A DNA stretch of 64,000 nt from an uncultured Flavobacteriaceae bacterium (GTDB lineage: Bacteria; Bacteroidota; Bacteroidia; Flavobacteriales; Flavobacteriaceae), in NCBI GenBank assembly GCA_947495135.1, contig CANLXN010000003.1, positions 248,001-312,000 of the forward strand, in the 5' to 3' direction. This document shows, piece by piece, positions 2,104-12,829 of this stretch; position 1 is the first letter of the stretch, and every line of letters begins with the position of its first letter. Below the pieces are notes generated by a model. That model was given only the letters and a program-made list of their open reading frames with translations, was not told where the DNA came from and did not search any database. Made by a program: the position numbers and the translations under genes.

Positions 2104-2454
2104 ATGGCAAAGAAAGACACGAAACCTGAAGAGGCAAATCCAATGGACTCTTCCTCAAAAATTGAGGCAATCAAAAACCTAATTTTTGGAGAGAACATTG
2201 TACAATACAATAGCGAATTCGATCAAATTCGAAAGGAAATTGACATTAAAAAATCTAAGCTCGAAGATTATATCGACGAAGTTAGAAACGAGTTAATGCA
2301 ATCTATTGATTCCTTAAGTACAGATGTCAATATCCGCATTACGGATCTTGAAGATAATTTACAAGCGAAGACAGATGCTTTAACCGAAAATAAAGTAGAC
2401 CGCAAGGAACTCGGAAAACTTCTTATCAATTTAGGGGAAAAAATAAGTTCATAA
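2104..2454 (+). CDS. Small coiled-coil protein, first gene of GTPase/sensor operon
   Basis: Unrecognised 116-residue soluble protein. After a polar N-terminus, about residues 25-115 are charged and heptad-like, predicting a long coiled coil, with no signal peptide or membrane segment. It sits 21 bp upstream of the OmpA-N-terminal-like gene on the same strand and appears to open the operon running to 6480. A scaffolding or oligomerisation role is suggested only by the coiled coil and context. Confidence 0.6.
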   Translation: MAKKDTKPEEANPMDSSSKIEAIKNLIFGENIVQYNSEFDQIRKEIDIKKSKLEDYIDEVRNELMQSIDSLSTDVNIRITDLEDNLQAKTDALTENKVDRKELGKLLINLGEKISS

Positions 2455-2475
2455 TACTTCTGTAGGCAATCTGGC

Positions 2476-3294
2476 ATGGGAAACAAAGAGGACAAACTTC
2501 AGCTTCTTAGAGACATTCTGTTGATTGATGACAGAATACTTGCCGATGCCGTAAACCAGCGCGTTGAGACTATTTCTGAAACCATAGAGACTAAGTCTAA
2601 ACTATCAGAAAAAGTAGACCCCATTTTTCAGGAAAAACTAGATGAATTCGTTGCCAACATCCCAGCCACTTTAGGCCCAACTATTACAAAAACTTTAAGA
2701 GAACAAATATCCAATTCGAAAGAAGAAGTGGTGGAAGCCTTGTACCCTATAATGGGTAAAATGATCAAAAGATATATTTCAAATGAGATCAAAGTACTTT
2801 CAGAAACCATCAATGCCAAAGTAAATAACAGTTTTTCGGTCAATGGGATTAAACGGAAACTTCGCTCTATGTTTACTGGAGTAAAGCAGAGTGATCTAAT
2901 TTTAGCTGAATCGAATCCTGCAGTAATCAATGAGGTTTTCGTAATTCAAAAAGGATCTGGAATTTTAATGGGAAATCACAGTAACACCGAAACATTGGAT
3001 AAAGATATGGTGTCTGGTATGCTTACCGCTATTAAGAGCTTCGTAGAAGATGCGTTTAAGGGTGGTAATCAGAATTTAGAAAATATTGAATACGAATTGT
3101 ATACACTTCACATTCAAAATTTCTACAGTTATTATATCGCTATCGTTGTTTCGGGCAACTATACACGCAGCTTTGAGAGTAAATTAGAAAACAGGCTTTT
3201 AAAGTTATCTGAAACATTATCCCCTAAACTTTCCACACTCAGTAGAGAAGAGATTGATTTATTTTTAAAATCCTATTTCACCAAATGGAAGTAA
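2476..3294 (+). CDS. Homologue of the N-terminal region of some OmpA-family proteins (no OmpA domain)
   Basis: Cytoplasmic-looking 272-residue protein. It resembles, from memory, the N-terminal non-OmpA region of proteins annotated 'OmpA family' in cyanobacteria and Bacteroidota: an early RDILLIDDRILAD segment, a middle with EEVVEALYPIMGKMIKRYI, then a compact domain containing SGMLTAIKSFVEDAF. The OmpA peptidoglycan-binding domain is absent and there is no signal peptide or membrane helix, so the usual product name would mislead. Its last 10 bases overlap the start of the first GTPase gene, implying translational coupling. The function is unknown; being an effector or regulator of the GTPase is a reasonable inference. 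Confidence 0.6.
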   Translation: MGNKEDKLQLLRDILLIDDRILADAVNQRVETISETIETKSKLSEKVDPIFQEKLDEFVANIPATLGPTITKTLREQISNSKEEVVEALYPIMGKMIKRYISNEIKVLSETINAKVNNSFSVNGIKRKLRSMFTGVKQSDLILAESNPAVINEVFVIQKGSGILMGNHSNTETLDKDMVSGMLTAIKSFVEDAFKGGNQNLENIEYELYTLHIQNFYSYYIAIVVSGNYTRSFESKLENRLLKLSETLSPKLSTLSREEIDLFLKSYFTKWK

Positions 3295-3776
3295 CGAAAA
3301 AAGTAGCGTTACTAGGCCAATTTGGTGTAGGTAAATCTTCCATTACGAGAAGATATATGTTGGATTTATTTGAAGCCGACTATATGCCAACACTGGGTGT
3401 TCAAATAAAGAAAAAAGTGCTACGCATGCCGTCTGGAAAGGAACTTTCCATGATTATTTGGGATTTAGAAGGATTTTCTTCCATTTCTAAAACCAGAGTT
3501 TCTTACCTTTTAGGGTCCAGCGCTTATATCTATGTTTTTGACATTACACGTCCCTTTACGTTTGAGCATTTAAAAGAAGAAATTGATTTTATAAAGTCTG
3601 AATACCCAAAAGTCGAATTAAAAATTGTTGGAAATAAAAAAGATCTAGGAGATCATAAAACTATTGAACAGATTTTGCAAAAACAGAATGTGGAAGTTGA
3701 TCATTTTGTAAGTGCAAAAACTGGCGATGGCGTGAAGGAACTCTTTGCAGATTTAGCTAAAAAATTGACGTCATGA
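3285..3776 (+). CDS. Ras-like small GTPase, copy 1
   Basis: Single-domain Ras-superfamily GTPase of 163 residues with all nucleotide-binding motifs: P-loop GQFGVGKS (11-18), switch I Thr36, switch II WDLEG (59-63), NKKD (117-120) and SAK (143-145). Two positions important for hydrolysis in Ras differ: Ras Gly12 corresponds to Phe13, and Ras Gln61 corresponds to Phe64. Intrinsic hydrolysis may therefore be slow or need a partner. No lipidation Cys or membrane segment is present. It overlaps both neighbours (10 bp upstream, ATGA downstream), so it is tightly coupled to the OmpA-N-like and sensor genes. Confidence 0.88.
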   Translation: MEVTKKVALLGQFGVGKSSITRRYMLDLFEADYMPTLGVQIKKKVLRMPSGKELSMIIWDLEGFSSISKTRVSYLLGSSAYIYVFDITRPFTFEHLKEEIDFIKSEYPKVELKIVGNKKDLGDHKTIEQILQKQNVEVDHFVSAKTGDGVKELFADLAKKLTS

Positions 3777-4378
3777 ACGGAAACAAAAGCACCTATTTTT
3801 CAAAAAAAATACAAGAAATTCACGCAAATGCTACGGGTGAAATCACTCACAGCAGCGATACCATCTTTGTAATAAAACCAAATGAAGATCTTTATTCCTT
3901 ACATCCGTTTTTTGAGAGTCTCCAAAATGAGCTTAAAAATGGAATTGGCTTAGAGAGTAGTTTGGCTTTTCCATGTGTACAACTTGAAATTCACGGAAAA
4001 GAAGCCATTTGTGACATTACTATTAAAAAGGAAAGAGGATTCCTTGCTATTCTCTTGTTCGATTACTCCCAGCACTATGAGCATTTGCACGAAGCCGCTC
4101 AAGAAAAGAAATCGTCTTTATTAAAAGAACAAGAGCACCTACTCAAAGCCAAACACCTCAACGAAAAGAAAGCCTACCTCGATTTTATGCGTAACCGTAT
4201 TGACGGTAAGCTTATTCATGAAATGGAAATTATGGTCAAAAATATCGAGGCCCTAAAACAGACCGGGCTAGACCCTGAGCAAAGAACTATTGTACAAGAA
4301 ATTGGCGAAAGCGTTGGTAAATTTCACTTAAAGGCGATCCAAATTAGAGAAGAATTAGACTTCGATTTCAATTCTTAA
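3773..4378 (+). CDS. Sensor-domain protein with degenerate histidine-kinase dimerisation domain
   Basis: 201-residue soluble protein. Residues 1 to about 100 are a PAS-like domain clearly homologous to the N-terminus of the kinase at 4960-6480: both share LHPFFE, then FPCVxLEI, then a hydrophobic strand and LFDY/LFDF. A coiled linker (105-135) leads to a two-helix segment that aligns with the DHp helices of that kinase, but the phosphorylatable His position holds Asp (N-R-I-D-G-K against N-L-N-H-E-I). The ATPase domain is absent. It is best read as a kinase-derived partner that may heterodimerise or relay GTPase state. It overlaps the GTPase gene by ATGA. Confidence 0.7.
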   Translation: MNGNKSTYFSKKIQEIHANATGEITHSSDTIFVIKPNEDLYSLHPFFESLQNELKNGIGLESSLAFPCVQLEIHGKEAICDITIKKERGFLAILLFDYSQHYEHLHEAAQEKKSSLLKEQEHLLKAKHLNEKKAYLDFMRNRIDGKLIHEMEIMVKNIEALKQTGLDPEQRTIVQEIGESVGKFHLKAIQIREELDFDFNS

Positions 4379-4472
4379 CACAAAATGTTTTCGATTAAAG
4401 GAACATAATTTCGGATTAATACGCCAAATTACTTAGTTAATTGAATATCTTTACCATTCCAAAAAAAATCTC

Positions 4473-4958
4473 ATGACGAATACAAAAAAAGTGGTCTTCC
4501 TTGGTCACTTTGGAGTTGGAAAAACAAGTTTGGTTCGCCAATTTGTTGACAGCGCCTTTAGTGAAGATTACCTAGTGACTGTTGGAGTCCACGTTAAGAA
4601 GAAAGATATAGTAGTAAATGGAGAAACCTTTTCCCTTATTATTTGGGATATTGAAGGCAATACTTCTATAGATCAAGCGCGCAGATCCTATTTGTTAGGA
4701 ACTCATGGCTTTGTATATGTGTTTGATATTACGCGACCAGAGACCTACGAGGATATTAATTCTGAAATGGAATACCTCGATGAACACTTCAAAGATATTC
4801 CAATCAATCTAGTTGGAAATAAAGCCGATTTGTTTGTAGATGGTTTTTCAAGAGATTTCTTCAAAGAAGATATTTTTAAAGATTGCTATTTTACCAGTGC
4901 TAAAACTGGAGAGCAAGTAGAGGAGATGTTCGAAAAATTAGCGGTAAAAATGATCTGA
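4473..4958 (+). CDS. Ras-like small GTPase, copy 2
   Basis: 161-residue paralogue of the GTPase at 3285-3776, alignable end to end. P-loop GHFGVGKT (11-18), Thr36, switch II WDIEGN (58-63), NKAD (116-119) and SAK (142-144) are present. As in copy 1, the Ras Gly12 position is Phe13 and the Gln61 position is not Gln (Asn63). It starts after a 94-bp gap that contains a TATCTTTA sequence resembling a weak -7 box, so this half of the operon might have its own promoter. The following kinase gene begins one base after its stop codon. Confidence 0.88.
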   Translation: MTNTKKVVFLGHFGVGKTSLVRQFVDSAFSEDYLVTVGVHVKKKDIVVNGETFSLIIWDIEGNTSIDQARRSYLLGTHGFVYVFDITRPETYEDINSEMEYLDEHFKDIPINLVGNKADLFVDGFSRDFFKEDIFKDCYFTSAKTGEQVEEMFEKLAVKMI

Positions 4959-4959
4959 T

Positions 4960-6480
4960 ATGATATTTAGTGAATTAAAACATGAAATCGTTGATAGTCA
5001 TGTCCAACAATTAGAGATCGATGATGCTGGGGTCATTCTTTCAAGTGACAATGCCTTTTTCGCCATTAACACTGGGGATACTATTGGCCAACTACACCCC
5101 TTCTTTGAAGGCATAGAACCCATACTTTCTACGATTTCCAAAACCATCTATTTTCCTTGTGTCAATCTGGAAATTGGCGAAGTCAAAAAAATAGTGGACA
5201 TTACTATTTTATATAAAAATGACCAACTTTTTCTGCTCTTGTTCGATTTTACCGAGCACTACAAAGCTTCACATCCATTGGTTCAAGAAAAAAATGAAGC
5301 CTCTATTGCTAGAAATAAATTAACTTTTGAAAAGCAGTTAATGTTAGCGAAAGAAGAATTCAAAAATAATTTTCTTGCCAATCTTAATCATGAAATTCGA
5401 AACCCGCTTAATAACATGCTCGGGTTTATCGAGCTCTTAGGAGACACCAAGCTTAATTATGATCAACATGAAACCCTTAAAATAGTTCAACGTACTGGAT
5501 CTCATATCAAAATGTTGATGGACGACATCCTTGACATCTCTAAAATTGAACGTGGCGTAATGGAGGCCAAGCATGTCAAATTTAATCTTACACAGGTGCT
5601 CTCCAGTATACAAAAGCACTTTCAACTTAAATATCAATTCTCTCCAGTTCAATTTGCCGTGAATGTTGAAGAAAACGTTCACAAAACACTCATAGGAGAT
5701 CCTGTAAAACTGAAGCAAATATTACTCAACTTGGTAGAAAATGCTTTCAGAAATACTCAAAAGGGCGCTGTTACCTTAAATATATCAGAATCACCCAAAG
5801 AGGACAAAACCGATATCAACACCGACATCGTATTTACCTTAAGCGATAGTGGAAATGGGATTCCAAAGGAAAAAATTGACAAGGTATTCGATTCTTATTT
5901 CCAGCTTCAATTAGGGAAACTAAAGCCAGTTGGAGAAGGTCTTGGATTAAAGATTGTAAAAGATCTTGTTATGCTGCTAAATGGAACAATTACTGTTTTT
6001 AGTGAAGAAAATGAAGGGAGCACATTTACCTGTGCCATTCCATTTGAAATGCGGAAGGCAGGTCGTCCAAAAAGAACAGTAGAGAAAGGTTCGGGAATTG
6101 TTTTGAGTAAGCGTATTCTTATTGCTGAAGAGGATTCGACCAGTCAAATGTTGTTTATGAAAACTTTCTTGAACAACGACCATGGTTTTATGATCGAAAT
6201 CGCCAATAGTGGTCAACAGACGCTCGATCTTCTTGAGAAAAAGGCTTACCAACTAGTCATACTCAAAACTTCGTTGCCAGACATCGATGCGATTTCGTTA
6301 CTTTCGCTCATTAAGAATCACGAATCTGAAGCTATCCAAAATACACCTGTTTTAGTTGCTTCGGGAAGCACTCTATTAGAAGAACAAGAGAAAATAAAAA
6401 ACGCCGGAGCAAGTCATTTCTTAGCGAAACCTTACTCCAAGCGCGAACTTTTTAATACCATCGAACAGGCCATTAAATAA
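4960..6480 (+). CDS. Hybrid sensor histidine kinase with pseudo-receiver
   Basis: 506-residue soluble kinase with no membrane segment or signal peptide. The order is: PAS-like sensor (about 1-100, shared with the 3773-4378 protein), coiled linker, DHp with H-box NLNHEIRNPL (His144), N-box (Asn261), G1 DSGNGIP (296-302), G2 GEGLGL (325-330), then a receiver-like domain (about 384-506). In the receiver the acidic pocket (E390, E391, D392), switch Ser and Lys490 are retained, but the phosphoacceptor Asp is replaced by Lys436 (VILKTSLP). The kinase itself looks intact, so phosphate should pass to an unlinked receiver, with this domain acting as a binding module. A GTPase gene directly precedes it, suggesting a GTPase as its input or output. 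Confidence 0.85.
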   Translation: MIFSELKHEIVDSHVQQLEIDDAGVILSSDNAFFAINTGDTIGQLHPFFEGIEPILSTISKTIYFPCVNLEIGEVKKIVDITILYKNDQLFLLLFDFTEHYKASHPLVQEKNEASIARNKLTFEKQLMLAKEEFKNNFLANLNHEIRNPLNNMLGFIELLGDTKLNYDQHETLKIVQRTGSHIKMLMDDILDISKIERGVMEAKHVKFNLTQVLSSIQKHFQLKYQFSPVQFAVNVEENVHKTLIGDPVKLKQILLNLVENAFRNTQKGAVTLNISESPKEDKTDINTDIVFTLSDSGNGIPKEKIDKVFDSYFQLQLGKLKPVGEGLGLKIVKDLVMLLNGTITVFSEENEGSTFTCAIPFEMRKAGRPKRTVEKGSGIVLSKRILIAEEDSTSQMLFMKTFLNNDHGFMIEIANSGQQTLDLLEKKAYQLVILKTSLPDIDAISLLSLIKNHESEAIQNTPVLVASGSTLLEEQEKIKNAGASHFLAKPYSKRELFNTIEQAIK

Positions 6481-6490
6481 AAGCCTCGAT

Positions 6491-6916
6491 CTATTTTCTA
6501 TTTAAAAGGTAACGGTAGTCTTCCAAATCTAGACCCCCTTGGTAGATAGCTATAGAACGCTTAATTAGTTTATTAGCTAATTCTTCTGTGTAACCAAGAC
6601 CAATCGCATACTTTTCAATTAGAGAACGTTCCTCATCATCGATTTCATTATCTGCAAAAATCATTTCAAAAAGATCGTGCATGCGCTCTAATCTAGTATC
6701 GGCGTCGTTTGGAGGATTAATTGGATACTTACCTGGATTCTTTAAAACTTCCTCATACTCCTCGGCTGCGATATCTAGTTTTCTGGCAAAACGCTTCAAC
6801 ATCTTCTCCTCTTCTTCTCCAAGTGCGCCATCAACAGATGCCATATTTGCAATTGATGCAAAGTGTCCTAAGTTCCTCTTATGCGCTCCGCTCTGATATA
6901 AATCTTTAAAAGTCAT
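6491..6916 (-). CDS. TerB-like protein
   Basis: 141-residue all-helical acidic protein with the TerB two-fold pattern: VDGALGEEE near residue 28 and ADNEIDDEE near residue 93, each a possible metal-binding turn followed by a helix. Proteins of this kind are labelled 'tellurite resistance TerB', but no other ter gene is here, so a role in tellurite resistance is not supported. It is convergent with the kinase gene (10 bp apart). A TATATTTG box at 6941-6934 lies 18 bp upstream of its start. Confidence 0.75.
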   Translation of the reverse strand: MTFKDLYQSGAHKRNLGHFASIANMASVDGALGEEEEKMLKRFARKLDIAAEEYEEVLKNPGKYPINPPNDADTRLERMHDLFEMIFADNEIDDEERSLIEKYAIGLGYTEELANKLIKRSIAIYQGGLDLEDYRYLLNRK

Positions 6917-7721: not shown

Positions 7722-8768
7722 ATGAAATCACCCCTTCTTGTCTTCAACGAAAACGGTATTTACTGTGAGCAGGCAGACGTCTACATTGACGCTTGGCGAC
7801 CAGTTTCAAAGTGTATTATTACACATGGACATGCCGATCACAGTCGATGGGGACATCAACAATACATTACCCACACCAACAACGTTCCCATTATTAAACA
7901 TCGACTCGGCGAAATTACAGTAACTGGGAAAGAATGGGGAGAGACCTTCACCATTAACGGGGTTACCTTTTCGCTACATCCAGCGGGACATATCGTGGCT
8001 TCTTCTCAGGTTCGAGTTTCGTATAAGGGAGAAGTTTGGGTTTTTACTGGCGATTTCAAAACAGAAAACGATGGTATTGCGGAGCCCTACGAACCTATTA
8101 AATGTCATACTTTTATAACTGAATGTACTTTTGGGTTACCTGCCTTTAAATGGACTCCACAACAACAGGTCTTTAATGATATTAACAACTGGTGGAATCA
8201 AAATAGAGTCGACGGTCGCACCTCCATCCTTTTTGGTTATAGCTTGGGCAAGGCACAGCGATTATTAAAACATTTGGATCCGGCTATAGGAAAGATCTAC
8301 ACCCACGGTGCTATAGAAAATATGACTCAGGTACTGCGATCACAATACGACTTCCCAGAAACAATACGGATTACAAAAGATACTAAAAAAGAAGAGCTCA
8401 AAGGTCAAATAGTCCTTGCACCTCCCAGTACTCATGGGGGAACATGGATTCGAAAAATGGTTCCGTATGTAACCGCCAGTGCGAGTGGATGGATGGCCTT
8501 TCGTGGTGCCCGCAGAAGAAGAGCTCTCGATCGTGGTTTTGTTTTAAGTGATCATGCAGATTGGGAAGGTTTACTAAAGGCAGTAGAAGAAACAGGGTGT
8601 TCAAAGGTGATTGCCACGCATGGTTATACGGATATTTTTGCCCGTTATTTGAGAGAAGAAATGAGCCTGGATGCGCGAACAGAAACAACTCAATATGAAG
8701 GCGAAACAGTTGAGGCAACCAATAGTTTATCATCTGAAGAAGTTTCAGAAACACCAATTAGCTTGTAA
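7722..8768 (+). CDS. Ligase-associated DNA exonuclease (metallo-beta-lactamase fold)
   Basis: 348-residue member of the metallo-beta-lactamase/beta-CASP nuclease group found next to ATP-dependent DNA ligases. The metal-binding motif HGHADHSRWG lies near residue 35, an AGHI motif near residue 90, GDFKT near residue 110, and a late SDHADW motif near residue 270. It is probably the first gene of a four-gene repair cassette and ends 12 bp before the ligase. Related cassettes are known from other bacteria and are thought to act together in a DNA-damage response. Confidence 0.9.
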   Translation: MKSPLLVFNENGIYCEQADVYIDAWRPVSKCIITHGHADHSRWGHQQYITHTNNVPIIKHRLGEITVTGKEWGETFTINGVTFSLHPAGHIVASSQVRVSYKGEVWVFTGDFKTENDGIAEPYEPIKCHTFITECTFGLPAFKWTPQQQVFNDINNWWNQNRVDGRTSILFGYSLGKAQRLLKHLDPAIGKIYTHGAIENMTQVLRSQYDFPETIRITKDTKKEELKGQIVLAPPSTHGGTWIRKMVPYVTASASGWMAFRGARRRRALDRGFVLSDHADWEGLLKAVEETGCSKVIATHGYTDIFARYLREEMSLDARTETTQYEGETVEATNSLSSEEVSETPISL

Positions 8769-8780
8769 CCCTAGTTGTCT

Positions 8781-10373
8781 ATGAAGGAGTTTGCTCAACT
8801 TATAAGAACACTCGATTCCACGAATAAAACTACTGAAAAGGTTTTAGCACTTTCTACCTATCTGCAGGAAGCTAGTGACTCCGACAGGCTATGGACCATT
8901 GCAATTTTATCCCATCGTAGACCTAAGCGACCAGTAAATACTACCTTGCTTAGAGCATGGGCTACCGAAATAAGCGGGATTCCATCCTGGCTCTTTGAAG
9001 AAAGCTATCACATAGTTGGCGACTTAGCCGAAACCATCGCACTTATTTTACCCTCTTCAGAAAAAGATAGTAATAAATCGCTTTCCACCTTTATCTCAGA
9101 AATCATAGAACTTAGAACCCTTTCTGATGAAGAAAAGAAAGCCTACTTGCAAGAAACTTGGCTCACCCTCAATTATTACGAGCGTTTTGTGTTCAACAAA
9201 ATAATAACCGGCGGATTCCGTATTGGAGTGAGCCAAAAATTAATGACCAAAGCGCTTGCAAAGGCAACCAAAATAGATGAAGATATTTTAGCGTATAAAT
9301 TAATGGGAAATTGGACGCCACAAACTACAACGTTCAAACAACTCATTTTGGAACACAATGAGGCAGACTATCTTTCTAAGCCTTTTCCGTTCTACCTCGC
9401 ATACGCTGTAGAAGATCAGTTTCAAAAAGAGCTAGGCGATATCGATCAATGGAGCTTTGAACATAAGTGGGACGGAATCCGATCGCAAGTGATTATTCGA
9501 GAAAATGAGGTTTTTGTTTGGTCAAGAGGAGAAGAACTGGTAACCGACAAATATCCTGAACTTCAAAAATTTCTAGAGGTAGTACCTAATGGAACCGTGA
9601 TAGACGGAGAAATTCTACCCTTCATAAATGGTAGAATTGGAAATTTTAATGCGCTTCAAACACGCATTGGCCGAAAAAACATTACCAAGGCCATGCTCGA
9701 AAAAACACCAGTCATTGTAAAAGCATACGATCTGCTCGAATGGAAAGGAAAAGATATTAGATCGCTCCCTTTTTCCCAAAGACGGGCATATCTGGAGCAG
9801 CTTCTTTCAGAAATAAATTCAGATAAAATTGGACTGTACTTGAGTGAATCAATGAGCTTTCAAAAATGGGAAGACGCGGCTCACGAACGATCCTTATCTC
9901 GGGAAAAACAAAGTGAGGGACTTATGATCAAAAGAAAAGATTCTCCCTATTTAGTAGGTAGGAAAAAAGGAGATTGGTGGAAGTGGAAAACCGATCCTTT
10001 TACCATCGATGCCGTACTTACTTATGCAATGAGAGGCCATGGACGGAGGGCTAATTTGTATACAGATTATACCTTCGGACTCTGGAACAATGGACATCTA
10101 GTTACTTTTGCGAAAGCGTATTCGGGCCTCACCGACGCCGAATTTAGACAGATAGATAATTGGATAAAGAAAAATACACTCGAACGTTTTGGGCCGGTCC
10201 GATCTGTTACACCCTATCATGTGTTCGAAATTGCTTTTGAAGGGATCGCAGAGAGCAAAAGACATAAAAGCGGTGTTGCTACCCGTTTTCCCCGCATGCT
10301 TCGCTGGAGAAAAGATAAGCCCATAGAAGAAGCAAACACCTTAGATGATCTGAAGGCACTCATACCCAAATGA
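8781..10373 (+). CDS. ATP-dependent DNA ligase (LigB-type, cassette-associated)
   Basis: 530-residue ATP-dependent DNA ligase, in addition to the NAD-dependent LigA expected elsewhere in the genome. An N-terminal helical DNA-binding domain (1 to about 200) is followed by the adenylation domain with active-site K229-W-D-G, motif III and V segments (GLMIKRKDS), and an OB-fold with the WWKWK motif. The ATG at 8781 is preferred over a TTG two codons upstream. The stop codon overlaps the helicase start (ATGA), so the two are translationally coupled. Confidence 0.93.
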   Translation: MKEFAQLIRTLDSTNKTTEKVLALSTYLQEASDSDRLWTIAILSHRRPKRPVNTTLLRAWATEISGIPSWLFEESYHIVGDLAETIALILPSSEKDSNKSLSTFISEIIELRTLSDEEKKAYLQETWLTLNYYERFVFNKIITGGFRIGVSQKLMTKALAKATKIDEDILAYKLMGNWTPQTTTFKQLILEHNEADYLSKPFPFYLAYAVEDQFQKELGDIDQWSFEHKWDGIRSQVIIRENEVFVWSRGEELVTDKYPELQKFLEVVPNGTVIDGEILPFINGRIGNFNALQTRIGRKNITKAMLEKTPVIVKAYDLLEWKGKDIRSLPFSQRRAYLEQLLSEINSDKIGLYLSESMSFQKWEDAAHERSLSREKQSEGLMIKRKDSPYLVGRKKGDWWKWKTDPFTIDAVLTYAMRGHGRRANLYTDYTFGLWNNGHLVTFAKAYSGLTDAEFRQIDNWIKKNTLERFGPVRSVTPYHVFEIAFEGIAESKRHKSGVATRFPRMLRWRKDKPIEEANTLDDLKALIPK

Positions 10374-12829
10374 ACAGAGAAGAACTCATTGCGATAGCAG
10401 AAAAATGGTTTGACGAACAAGGCTGGAAGATTTTCTCATTTCAGAAAAAAACTTGGACCGCTTTTTTACAAGGAAAAAATGGTCTGCTCAACGCGCCTAC
10501 TGGAAGTGGAAAAACCTATGCACTTTGGACACCTATCGTGTTGCAATATATAAAAGACAATCCCAATTATAAATCAAAAAGAACGAAGGGAATAAAAGCA
10601 ATCTGGATTACTCCCCTACGAGCGCTTTCAACAGAAATTCAACAAGCTACCCAACGCTTGGCAGACGAACTAGAAACGGGACTTACTGTTGGAGTAAGAA
10701 CTGGAGACACCCCCCAAAGTGAGCGTGCAAAACAAAAGCGAAACATGCCCGATTTGTTGATCACAACACCTGAAAGTTTGATGCTACTGCTTGGTTCCAA
10801 AGGCTACGCCTCCCAGTTTAAAACATTGACAGCCGTAGTAATAGACGAATGGCATGAATTATTAGGAAGTAAGAGAGGAGTACAAATGGAATTGGCATTG
10901 TCTAGACTGAAAGTGGTGGCCTCCAAGCTACGCATCTGGGGAATTTCTGCCACTATCGGAAATATAAATCAGGCACAAGAAGTATTACTTGGAGCAGATC
11001 CCGTCTATCGCGAAAAATCAGTTTTAATTCAGGCAAGACAGAAGAAAAAAATAACGGTTCAATCTATTATTCCTAAAGAAATGGACACCTTTCCGTGGAG
11101 AGGACACCTAGGACTGCATTTATTAGATGAAGTCGTTCCTATTATAAGAGACAGCAAAACAACACTTCTTTTCACCAATACGCGCAGTCAATGCGAGATT
11201 TGGTTTCAAAAAATTCTAGAACGCTATCCCGAATTTGCCGGAGAGTTAGCCATGCACCATGGAAGTATCGCCAAAGATACTCGTCTTTGGGTAGAGCAAG
11301 CAATTCGCAACGAATCTCTCAAAGCGGTGGTAGCAACATCCAGTCTTGACCTAGGCGTAGATTTTGCTCCCGTAGAGACCATTATTCAAATAGGAGGGCC
11401 TAAGGGAATTGCTAAATTTTTACAGAGAGCCGGAAGAAGTAATCATCGCCCAGGGGAAACTTCAGTAATTCATTTTCTGCCCACGCACGCATTGGAATTG
11501 GTAGAGGCATCTGCTCTTAAAAGAGCAGTTACCGAGGAAGTAATGGAAGACAGAATCCCACATTTGCTAAGCTTCGATGTACTTATCCAGTATTTAGTGA
11601 CTTTGGCAATTAGCGATGGATTTATTCCTTCGGAAATTTTCACGGAAATAAAAACGTGCTTTGCCTTTTCCTCTATTACGGAAGACCAATGGATGTGGTG
11701 CCTTAATTTTATTACCATTGGGAGCCAAAGTTTACAGGCATATGACGAATACAAACGCGTGATTGTTACCCCAGAAGGCTTATTTAAAGTAGAAAGCAAG
11801 CGCACAGCCATGATGCATAGACTCTCCATTGGCACCATTGTAAGTGATGCAATGCTACATGTGAAATATGTCTCGGGAGGCTTTATTGGCACCATAGAAG
11901 AATGGTTTATTGGCAAGATGAAACCAGGAGATACCTTTGTATTTGCAGGACGCACTTTAGAGCTTGTTCGTCTACGCGGAATGACGGCCCAAGTTCGTAT
12001 GTCTAAAAAACGAACCGCCAACGTGGTTAGTTTTATGGGAGGAAGATTGCCATTATCATCTCAAATGAGTGAAATTCTGAGGGAAGAATTACAAAAAGAA
12101 GATGCCGATGGCAAGAAAAGCAAAGAATTGAAGGCACTTAGACCAGTCTTTAAACAGCAAAAAAAAGAATCCATCGTCCCTGGAGCAAACCAATTTTTAA
12201 TTGAAACATTTAAAACACGAGAAGGCTATCACGCTATTTTTTATCCCTTTGAAGGCAGGTTCGTTCATGAAGCTATGTCTGGTTTATTGGCTTACAGAAT
12301 GAGTTTACTGAAAGCCATTACTTTCTCACTTGCCTACAACGACTACGGATTTGAATTACTTAGTGATCAGCCAATAGATATTGAAAGTTTGATCGACAAC
12401 AATTTATTTACTACCCAGTATTTGTTTTCGGATCTTCAGAAAAGTATCAACTCGACCGAATTAGCTCGCAGGAAATTTAGAGATATTGCAGTGATTAGCG
12501 GATTGGTGTTTCAAGGTTACCCAAACAAAATGATCAAAACAAAACACCTGCAAAGTAGCAGTCAGTTATTATTTGATGTATTTAAAGATTACGAACCCAA
12601 CAACCTTCTCTATCTACAGGCGTTTAGAGAAACTTACGAGCATCAATTGGAAGAAGGACGATTGAGACAGTCGCTGGAGCGCATTGCTGATCAAGAAATT
12701 GTATGGAAAGAATGCCTGAAACCAACTCCCTTTAGTTTTCCAATTATAACAGACCGGTTAAGAGAGAAGCTTTCATCTGAAAAACTGAAAGACCGTATCA
12801 AAAAAATGACCTTAAAATATAATAAATAG
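10370..12829 (+). CDS. Ligase-associated DEXH-box helicase (Lhr-like)
   Basis: 819-residue superfamily 2 helicase of the Lhr type. Motif I is APTGSGKT (42-49), motif II is D-E-W-H (159-162), motif III is SATIG, and motif VI is the QRAGRSNHRPG segment. The C-terminal Lhr-specific region follows from about residue 400. It is shorter than classical Lhr (about 1500 residues), as is usual for the cassette form. It is expected to translocate on DNA and cooperate with the exonuclease, ligase and PdeM encoded alongside. Confidence 0.93.
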   Translation: MNREELIAIAEKWFDEQGWKIFSFQKKTWTAFLQGKNGLLNAPTGSGKTYALWTPIVLQYIKDNPNYKSKRTKGIKAIWITPLRALSTEIQQATQRLADELETGLTVGVRTGDTPQSERAKQKRNMPDLLITTPESLMLLLGSKGYASQFKTLTAVVIDEWHELLGSKRGVQMELALSRLKVVASKLRIWGISATIGNINQAQEVLLGADPVYREKSVLIQARQKKKITVQSIIPKEMDTFPWRGHLGLHLLDEVVPIIRDSKTTLLFTNTRSQCEIWFQKILERYPEFAGELAMHHGSIAKDTRLWVEQAIRNESLKAVVATSSLDLGVDFAPVETIIQIGGPKGIAKFLQRAGRSNHRPGETSVIHFLPTHALELVEASALKRAVTEEVMEDRIPHLLSFDVLIQYLVTLAISDGFIPSEIFTEIKTCFAFSSITEDQWMWCLNFITIGSQSLQAYDEYKRVIVTPEGLFKVESKRTAMMHRLSIGTIVSDAMLHVKYVSGGFIGTIEEWFIGKMKPGDTFVFAGRTLELVRLRGMTAQVRMSKKRTANVVSFMGGRLPLSSQMSEILREELQKEDADGKKSKELKALRPVFKQQKKESIVPGANQFLIETFKTREGYHAIFYPFEGRFVHEAMSGLLAYRMSLLKAITFSLAYNDYGFELLSDQPIDIESLIDNNLFTTQYLFSDLQKSINSTELARRKFRDIAVISGLVFQGYPNKMIKTKHLQSSSQLLFDVFKDYEPNNLLYLQAFRETYEHQLEEGRLRQSLERIADQEIVWKECLKPTPFSFPIITDRLREKLSSEKLKDRIKKMTLKYNK

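Follow-up and report, generated by a model that had tools for sequence, protein, structure and literature searches.

The closest described systems are the Group 1 Rup gene neighbourhoods, catalogued in silico by Wuichet & Sogaard-Andersen in 2014 (PMC4316618). In the parts of that survey that deal with them, these four-gene neighbourhoods comprise a coiled-coil protein, a protein with a domain of unknown function (DUF) that often, though not always, carries OmpA, a Ras-type GTPase lacking the glutamine of the G3 motif, and an output protein whose N-terminal region holds an invariant glutamine. The same parts propose an 'unknown GAP' (GTPase-activating protein) for Rup, with 0 Rup sequences coupled to MglB, which leaves the regulator of the Group 1 Rup GTPases unrecognised. 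Here we describe a six-gene cassette at positions 2104-6480 of a 64,000-nucleotide stretch of DNA from an uncultured marine Flavobacteriaceae bacterium, referred to throughout as the window (contig CANLXN010000003.1 of assembly GCA_947495135.1, positions 248,001-312,000, forward strand). Judged from its genes, the cassette is a flavobacterial, soluble, OmpA-less form of the Group 1 Rup neighbourhood. The original prediction, made from the letters of the window, had proposed a possibly undescribed signalling system; this was not borne out, as the four-gene set is already listed in the 2014 survey.

The cassette is thus of a known kind, soluble and partly duplicated, and in the literature we found this kind has been treated in silico only. 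It shares with the surveyed neighbourhoods the coiled-coil gene, the DUF protein, the GTPase without G3 glutamine and the N-terminal glutamine of the output protein. Unlike those neighbourhoods, as far as the relevant parts of the survey describe them, it encodes no membrane segment or OmpA domain, and it has two GTPases, a second sensor without a kinase, and a receiver without the acceptor aspartate. New here are the assignment of the DUF protein, which we call P2, as a probable roadblock/longin regulator, and hence a concrete candidate for the regulator lacking in 2014, together with the duplicated unit with its kinase-less sensor and the lysine in the receiver.

Gene order and conservation of the cassette

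The six genes lie on the + strand in the order CC, P2, GTP1, SEN1, GTP2 and SEN2. CC (2104..2454, 116 residues) opens the cassette and probably encodes a coiled coil, while P2 (2476..3294, 272 residues) corresponds to the N-terminal region of Rup-system OmpA-family proteins. GTP1 (3285..3776, 163 residues) and GTP2 (4473..4958, 161 residues) are two copies of a Ras/Rab-like small GTPase. SEN1 (3773..4378, 201 residues) is a kinase-less sensor paralogue in which an N-terminal domain is followed by a helical remnant without the phospho-histidine, and SEN2 (4960..6480, 506 residues) is a soluble hybrid histidine kinase made up of an N-terminal domain, HisKA, HATPase_c and a receiver. P2 and GTP1 overlap by 10 bases, GTP1 and SEN1 by 4, and 94 bases separate SEN1 from GTP2, so that the earlier description of six same-strand genes, several overlapping, is upheld by the coordinates. 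Pfam Ras (PF00071) matches GTP1 (E 4.9e-26) and GTP2 (E 5e-32), and HisKA, HATPase_c and receiver families match SEN2; CC, P2 and SEN1 have no Pfam match that passes the curated cut-off. A search of the window's own genome with the cassette proteins returned these two GTPases and one P2.

Scanning genomes with a P2 profile yielded 445 relatives, and the 80 best were analysed. Together with the window and 11 further neighbourhoods these make 92 loci, each gathered for its similarity to the GTPase or P2. Six of them, all with two units, duplicate others, which leaves 86. Downstream of CC and P2, one or more GTPases and sensors are encoded in 84 of the 86 loci, which is beyond chance, and the remaining two stop at contig ends. 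The commonest form is CC-P2-GTPase-sensor (55/86, plus 2/86 with an extra CC-like match). Two full GTPase-sensor units occur in 10/86 loci, two units with an additional sensor copy in 1/86 (L060), a broken first unit in 1/86 (L059), a lone short sensor domain where the first unit would otherwise stand in 5/86, two sensors after one GTPase in 10/86, and 2/86 are cut at a contig end. The claim that the GTPases go with a soluble kinase therefore stands, and the loss of the neighbourhood in relatives that would have spoken against it was not seen. P2 relatives bearing a genus name belong, as far as tree labels show, to the Flavobacteriaceae. Among 60 genomes, P2 and strong GTPase matches (E <1e-30) share the same 12, the window's own included, and two more have marginal GTPase matches alone (E ~1e-4).

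A CC homologue precedes P2 in all 86 loci, with a conserved N-terminal motif, IKNLIFGEN, and with K19, F28, G29, N31, F39 and K97 each kept in 84-86 of the 86. An N-terminal motif common to CC and P2, suspected on visual inspection, was dropped at an hhalign probability of 0.7%. In 21 same-genus pairs the median ratio of nonsynonymous to synonymous differences (pN/pS) was 0.16 for CC, 0.16 for P2, 0.29 for GTP1, 0.26 for SEN1, 0.26 for GTP2 and 0.30 for SEN2, values that are a rough guide only because synonymous sites are largely saturated, no SEN1 pair having a finite synonymous divergence (dS). They indicate that all six genes are under constraint.

A long form of P2 is found in less closely related Bacteroidota, on a Nostoc plasmid and on plasmids of rhizobia. 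A Pfam OmpA domain lies downstream of the shared region in 10/10 long homologues tested, including those of Nostoc and Mesorhizobium, and the original label of P2 as an OmpA-N-terminal-like protein without OmpA was correct. All four cassette parts are present in the 3/3 plasmid loci read. The distant output domains include a histidine kinase, a kinase-receiver-Hpt protein, a sigma-54 activator and a nucleotide cyclase. The sigma-54 activator (L145 and L147) is not among the outputs named in the parts of the 2014 survey that list them (PMC4316618), and the output protein of L146 resembles those of L145 and L147 at its N-terminus.

P2 is predicted to contain a roadblock/longin domain

Residues 138-251 of P2 (2887..3228, + strand) are strongly predicted, by structure model and profile comparison, to fold as a roadblock/longin domain, and thus probably belong to the superfamily of MglB and the eukaryotic Rab exchange factors. 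A first AlphaFold model built from 12 sequences had a mean predicted local distance difference test score (pLDDT) of only 55.8, for which reason a second was made from 74 sequences (mean pLDDT 74.4). In the latter, residues 138-269 form a helix, two strands, a helix, three strands and two helices (a-b-b-a-b-b-b-a-a), with block pLDDT values of 78-92 in the domain except for 54-70 at residues 171-210; blocks 81-120 and 171-200 are poor (52-63). The roadblock/longin core is a beta-beta-alpha-beta-beta-beta arrangement with flanking helices, and the model, poorly resolved at residues 171-210, has its strands and helices in this order.

Foldseek comparison of the 74-sequence model with the PDB placed among the best 50 of 660 matches AP sigma, the longin domains of Sec22b, Vamp7 and Ykt6, Mon1-Ccz1:Ypt7 (5ldd), TRAPP, Rag/Ragulator, Fuzzy-Inturned and MglB, with template modelling (TM) scores by target mostly of 0.44-0.65 for small targets. 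The best 50 of 698 matches of the 12-sequence model fall in the same superfamily. The matched chains are presumably the longin or roadblock chains, judging mostly by what the complexes are called; this assignment does not extend to the doublet-microtubule chains, namely 8j07 (in both lists) and 9y6s, 9e5c and 9fqr (in the 12-sequence list). Independent of the models, hhalign aligned P2 residues 131-272 to a Robl_LC7 profile built from 29 Bacteroidota sequences with a probability of 87% over 113 columns (score 38.5), and whole P2 with 69-74%. The score exceeds the nulls (maximum 16.9 in 100 column shuffles, 13.6 for the reversed profile, 12.6 for the N-terminal half of P2), and control pairs gave 9.9% on 12 columns (P2 and GTPase), 0.1% (P2 and sensor), 4.3% (sensor and Robl_LC7) and 0.9% (GTPase and Robl_LC7).

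The original statement that no roadblock-type GAP is seen here is thus probably wrong, given the predicted fold of P2. Full-text searches of the open literature returned no report of a roadblock/longin domain in a Rup-associated OmpA-type protein, and it is the DUF protein of the Group 1 Rup neighbourhood, as described in part in the survey, that is recognised here as probably such a domain. No invariant or near-invariant column of P2 is Gln or Arg (alignment A4), and P2 would therefore not be expected to supply a catalytic finger.

GTPases and sensors

GTP1 and GTP2 share 42% identity (E 1.2e-38), and SEN1 and SEN2 26% in their alignment; in six same-genus genomes the two sensors cross-match at E 8e-18 to 1e-22, and the paralogy claimed for both genes of the unit is accordingly confirmed. 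The best solved relative of GTP2, among the best 60 of 651 matches, is eukaryotic Rab-1B (E 1.3e-22). GTP1 and GTP2 are both Ras-type GTPases of under 240 residues. The G1, G2, G4 and G5 motifs of GTP1 are intact, and the G3 glutamine is replaced by Phe in GTP1 (WDLEGF, 3459-3476) and by Asn in GTP2 (WDIEGN, 4644-4661). It is missing from 90/95 GTPases, in which Asn (45), Thr (16), Phe (11), His (9) or others (9) take its place, and present in 5/95. The MglA family is marked by a G3 motif without the otherwise conserved Asp and by coupling to an MglB gene. Membership of that family or of the conservon GTPases was considered and rejected, because the G3 Asp is present (95/95); a scan of the window's genome with Pfam Robl_LC7 (PF03259) also gave no match.

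The conserved glutamine of the sensors (Q109 of SEN2, 5284-5286) is found in 94/94 sensors longer than 330 residues and in 108/111 sensor N-terminal domains, with one of the three exceptions due to a mis-started row. Kinase-less copies keep it except in two cases, and SEN1 of the window has it as Q110 (4100-4102). The same column is Gln in all nine judgeable proteins among the 11 distant outputs (L152 is too short and L156 mis-started). In SEN2 the phospho-histidine H144 (5389-5391) and N261 of the N box are present and the receiver acceptor is Lys436 (6265-6267), so that SEN2 departs from an active hybrid histidine kinase at the receiver aspartate. Among 92 readable sensors the acceptor is Asp in 44, Lys in 24, Ser in 12, Asn in 10 and Ala in 2, with Lys in the window and all 24 loci of its clade and in no others. 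SEN1 lacks the phospho-histidine in 7/7 same-genus copies. Where two sensors follow one GTPase (L082, L084, L086, L087, L089, L102, L103, L107, L112 and L117), the second has Asn at the receiver acceptor in 10/10, and in two of the ten (L087 and L089) it additionally lacks the phospho-histidine.

Putative mechanism and its alternatives

In our model of this Group 1 Rup cassette, to which we give a probability of roughly two in three, the roadblock/longin domain of P2 controls the Ras/Rab-like GTPases, and these gate the SEN2 kinase. We infer each binding and regulatory step. CC and P2 would form a regulatory platform that holds and loads the GTPases, with the P2 domain binding them and setting their nucleotide state either as an exchange factor or as an MglB-like activator. 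A loaded GTPase would then bind its partner sensor in the N-terminal domain, close to or at the invariant glutamine, which opens the linker helix, and this binding would gate the SEN2 histidine kinase. The kinase-less GTPase-sensor unit may act as a competitor or dimer partner of the kinase-bearing one. As the SEN2 receiver has lost its acceptor Asp, the phosphoryl group would have to pass from SEN2 to a separate protein.

Several points weigh against this model. Full-text searches of the open literature found no experiment or biochemistry on any Rup protein. The Foldseek E-values are modest (best 4.5e-4 for the 74-sequence and 1.7e-3 for the 12-sequence model), and without the 14 sequences from L143-L156, that is with the 60 of alignment A3 alone, the Robl_LC7 match falls to 46.5% for the whole protein and 61.7% over 51 columns for the domain. 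None of the 74 P2 members was seen to reach the Pfam cut-off for a roadblock or longin family, and Robl_LC7 is absent among the best 25 of 75 Pfam families for these members. The best sub-threshold longin family is Fuz_longin_1 (E 0.0012, 4/74 members; the match of L150 is also under the cut-off), matches that count for little because chance-looking families do equally well or better (TFIID_20kDa at 7.4e-05, DUF445 in 22 members). Longin folds are PAS-like (PMC3521125, in the part dealing with the fold), so fold similarity alone could mislead, a concern countered by the 0.2% obtained by hhalign for P2 against a PAS profile. The sensor N-terminal domain gave 10.6% over 20 columns against a profile of 29 PAS_9 matches (score 21.6, null maximum 17.4). 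P2 is patchy across the phylum, in 14/395 Bacteroidota genomes sampled, and three loci (L148, L149 and L154) have CC and a long, OmpA-bearing P2 with no GTPase match within the fetched stretch, which tells against a strict P2-GTPase link; either their GTPase lies elsewhere or their P2 works without one. Finally, in the five cases where the GTPase has a G3 glutamine, the adjoining sensors still have Q109.

The chief alternative is that the roadblock/longin fold of P2 is a dimerisation scaffold only and that the sensor N-terminal domain alone regulates the GTPase, supplying the missing glutamine as a GAP. Scaffold-type dimerisation is known for dynein light chains and SNARE longins. This alternative would extend the proposal made in the relevant part of the 2014 survey (PMC4316618), and it draws on the constancy of the sensor glutamine, in all 94 long sensors, in nearly all kinase-less copies and at the same column of distant outputs with quite different catalytic domains, as well as on the lack of a comparable Gln or Arg in P2. 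Against it, several Foldseek targets of the P2 fold family bind GTPases (Mon1-Ccz1:Ypt7, MglA-MglB), and the persistence of the glutamine beside GTPases with their own G3 glutamine is hard to square with a glutamine that acts solely in trans; we regard the scaffold explanation as unlikely. That convenience of transcription alone keeps the genes together, with the GTPases acting on a target unrelated to the kinase, would sit with the fact that direct interaction data were not found in the open literature searched. This is very improbable, since the GTPase stays paired with the output protein even as the catalytic domain varies between histidine kinase, sigma-54 activator and nucleotide cyclase, and paired copies of GTPase and sensor are present in 11/86 loci.

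Control of the GTPases by P2 can now be tested with a few soluble proteins, for which the flavobacterial form, being soluble, is well suited, and the natural variants, in which the kinase, the receiver Asp, or the GTPase with the sensor domain kept, has been lost, are ready-made mutants.

Origin and fate of the duplicated unit

The copy-1 GTPases form one clade (support 100/99), and the copy-2 GTPases fall inside a clade of 24 loci (96/97) that a quick P2 tree also recovers. Within it, 11 loci have both units, one has a broken first unit (L059), five have the sensor domain only and seven have neither. The stand-alone sensor domains are 116-132 residues long; in these loci (L051, L064, L066, L067 and L071) the N-terminal domain is kept and GTP1 lost, and the L067 copy is without the glutamine. 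Two-copy loci are scattered across the P2 clade, a distribution consistent with a two-copy state that existed early and was lost more than once. Gaps of 90-354 bases in the single-copy clade loci fit deletion; the 60 loci that lie outside it have a median of -14, with gaps of 92-102 bases in six of them. A tblastn search for GTP1 or SEN1 remnants in the gaps of seven single-copy loci gave a best E of 0.006 (L056); the match is short and on the wrong strand, so deletion scars are not shown.

An approximately unbiased (AU) test weakly rejected a joint clade of copies 1 and 2 (p 0.0256, for a group chosen after seeing the tree), and in the GTPase tree copy 1 falls with sequences from Aquimarina (99/78, not starred). 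These results raise the alternative that one unit came from another lineage or from an older duplication instead of a recent tandem duplication within the clade. We consider this less likely than not, given that the AU test is post hoc, the copy-1 stem long and the alignment limited to 163 columns, that copy 1 occupies the ancestral place, overlapping or abutting P2, and that the quick P2 tree does not unite the clade with Aquimarina. The first unit might also be a decaying remnant without function, its kinase being lost and GTP1 being gone from 12/24 clade loci and broken in one more (L059), and the saturation of synonymous sites makes pN/pS a blunt measure of constraint here. Decay is improbable, however, as the median pN/pS values of GTP1 and SEN1 (0.29 and 0.26) are no higher than that of SEN2 (0.30), the remaining G motifs of GTP1 are intact in the window, and SEN1 retains its glutamine. 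SEN1 is thus kinase-less yet looks constrained, which makes the original suggestion of the first unit as a modulator a reasonable one.

Candidate internal promoter and neighbouring genes

The gap before GTP2 contains the element TATCTTTAC (4446..4454, + strand), a candidate -7 box of an internal promoter for GTP2-SEN2, 27 bases upstream of GTP2. It is present at -27 to -33 in 4/7 same-genus loci (six by scan, L041 seen separately), and in 4/26 gapped loci scanned against 0.04 expected from shuffles. A flavobacterial promoter with strict consensus boxes was not found upstream of CC or GTP2 in the window.

Convergent with SEN2 lies a gene for a TerB-like protein (6491-6916, - strand; Pfam TerB E 5.1e-07), which is found at the equivalent place in L037, L038, L040, L041, L042 and L043. 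Further downstream is an ordinary repair trio (7722-12829) of a ligase-associated DNA damage response exonuclease, an ATP-dependent ligase and a DEXH helicase, assigned by NCBIfam TIGR04122, TIGR04120 and TIGR04121, respectively.

Comparison with MglA/MglB, conservons and Rab-longin pairs

The cassette resembles MglA/MglB of Myxococcus xanthus in that a small GTPase is encoded beside a protein of probable roadblock fold, and the actinobacterial conservons (CvnA-D) in that a histidine kinase is adjacent as well. Unlike the roadblock proteins of those systems, P2 was not seen to reach the Pfam Robl_LC7 cut-off, and it has a long N-terminal helical part. With the eukaryotic Rab exchange factors (Mon1-Ccz1, TRAPP, Fuzzy-Inturned, DENN) it shares the combination of a Rab-like GTPase and a probable longin-type partner, and the Foldseek matches of P2 include Mon1-Ccz1 bound to Ypt7 (5ldd). 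The two comparisons differ in kind: profile similarity of P2 was found to prokaryotic roadblock proteins only, while its likeness to eukaryotic longins is one of fold together with the weak Fuz_longin_1 matches. Longins have been proposed, in the part of the work of Zhang et al. 2012 that concerns their origin, to derive from roadblock partners of MglA-like GTPases (PMC3521125), and P2, as a probable roadblock/longin protein, bears on the origin of the eukaryotic Rab-longin pairing. We tentatively suggest, at somewhat less than even odds, that Rup and P2, as a Rab/Ras-like GTPase with a longin/roadblock partner, may be a direct prokaryotic counterpart of the Rab-longin pair beside MglA-MglB, and that the envelope proteins in which P2 is joined to OmpA may be cell-wall-linked regulators of GTPases.

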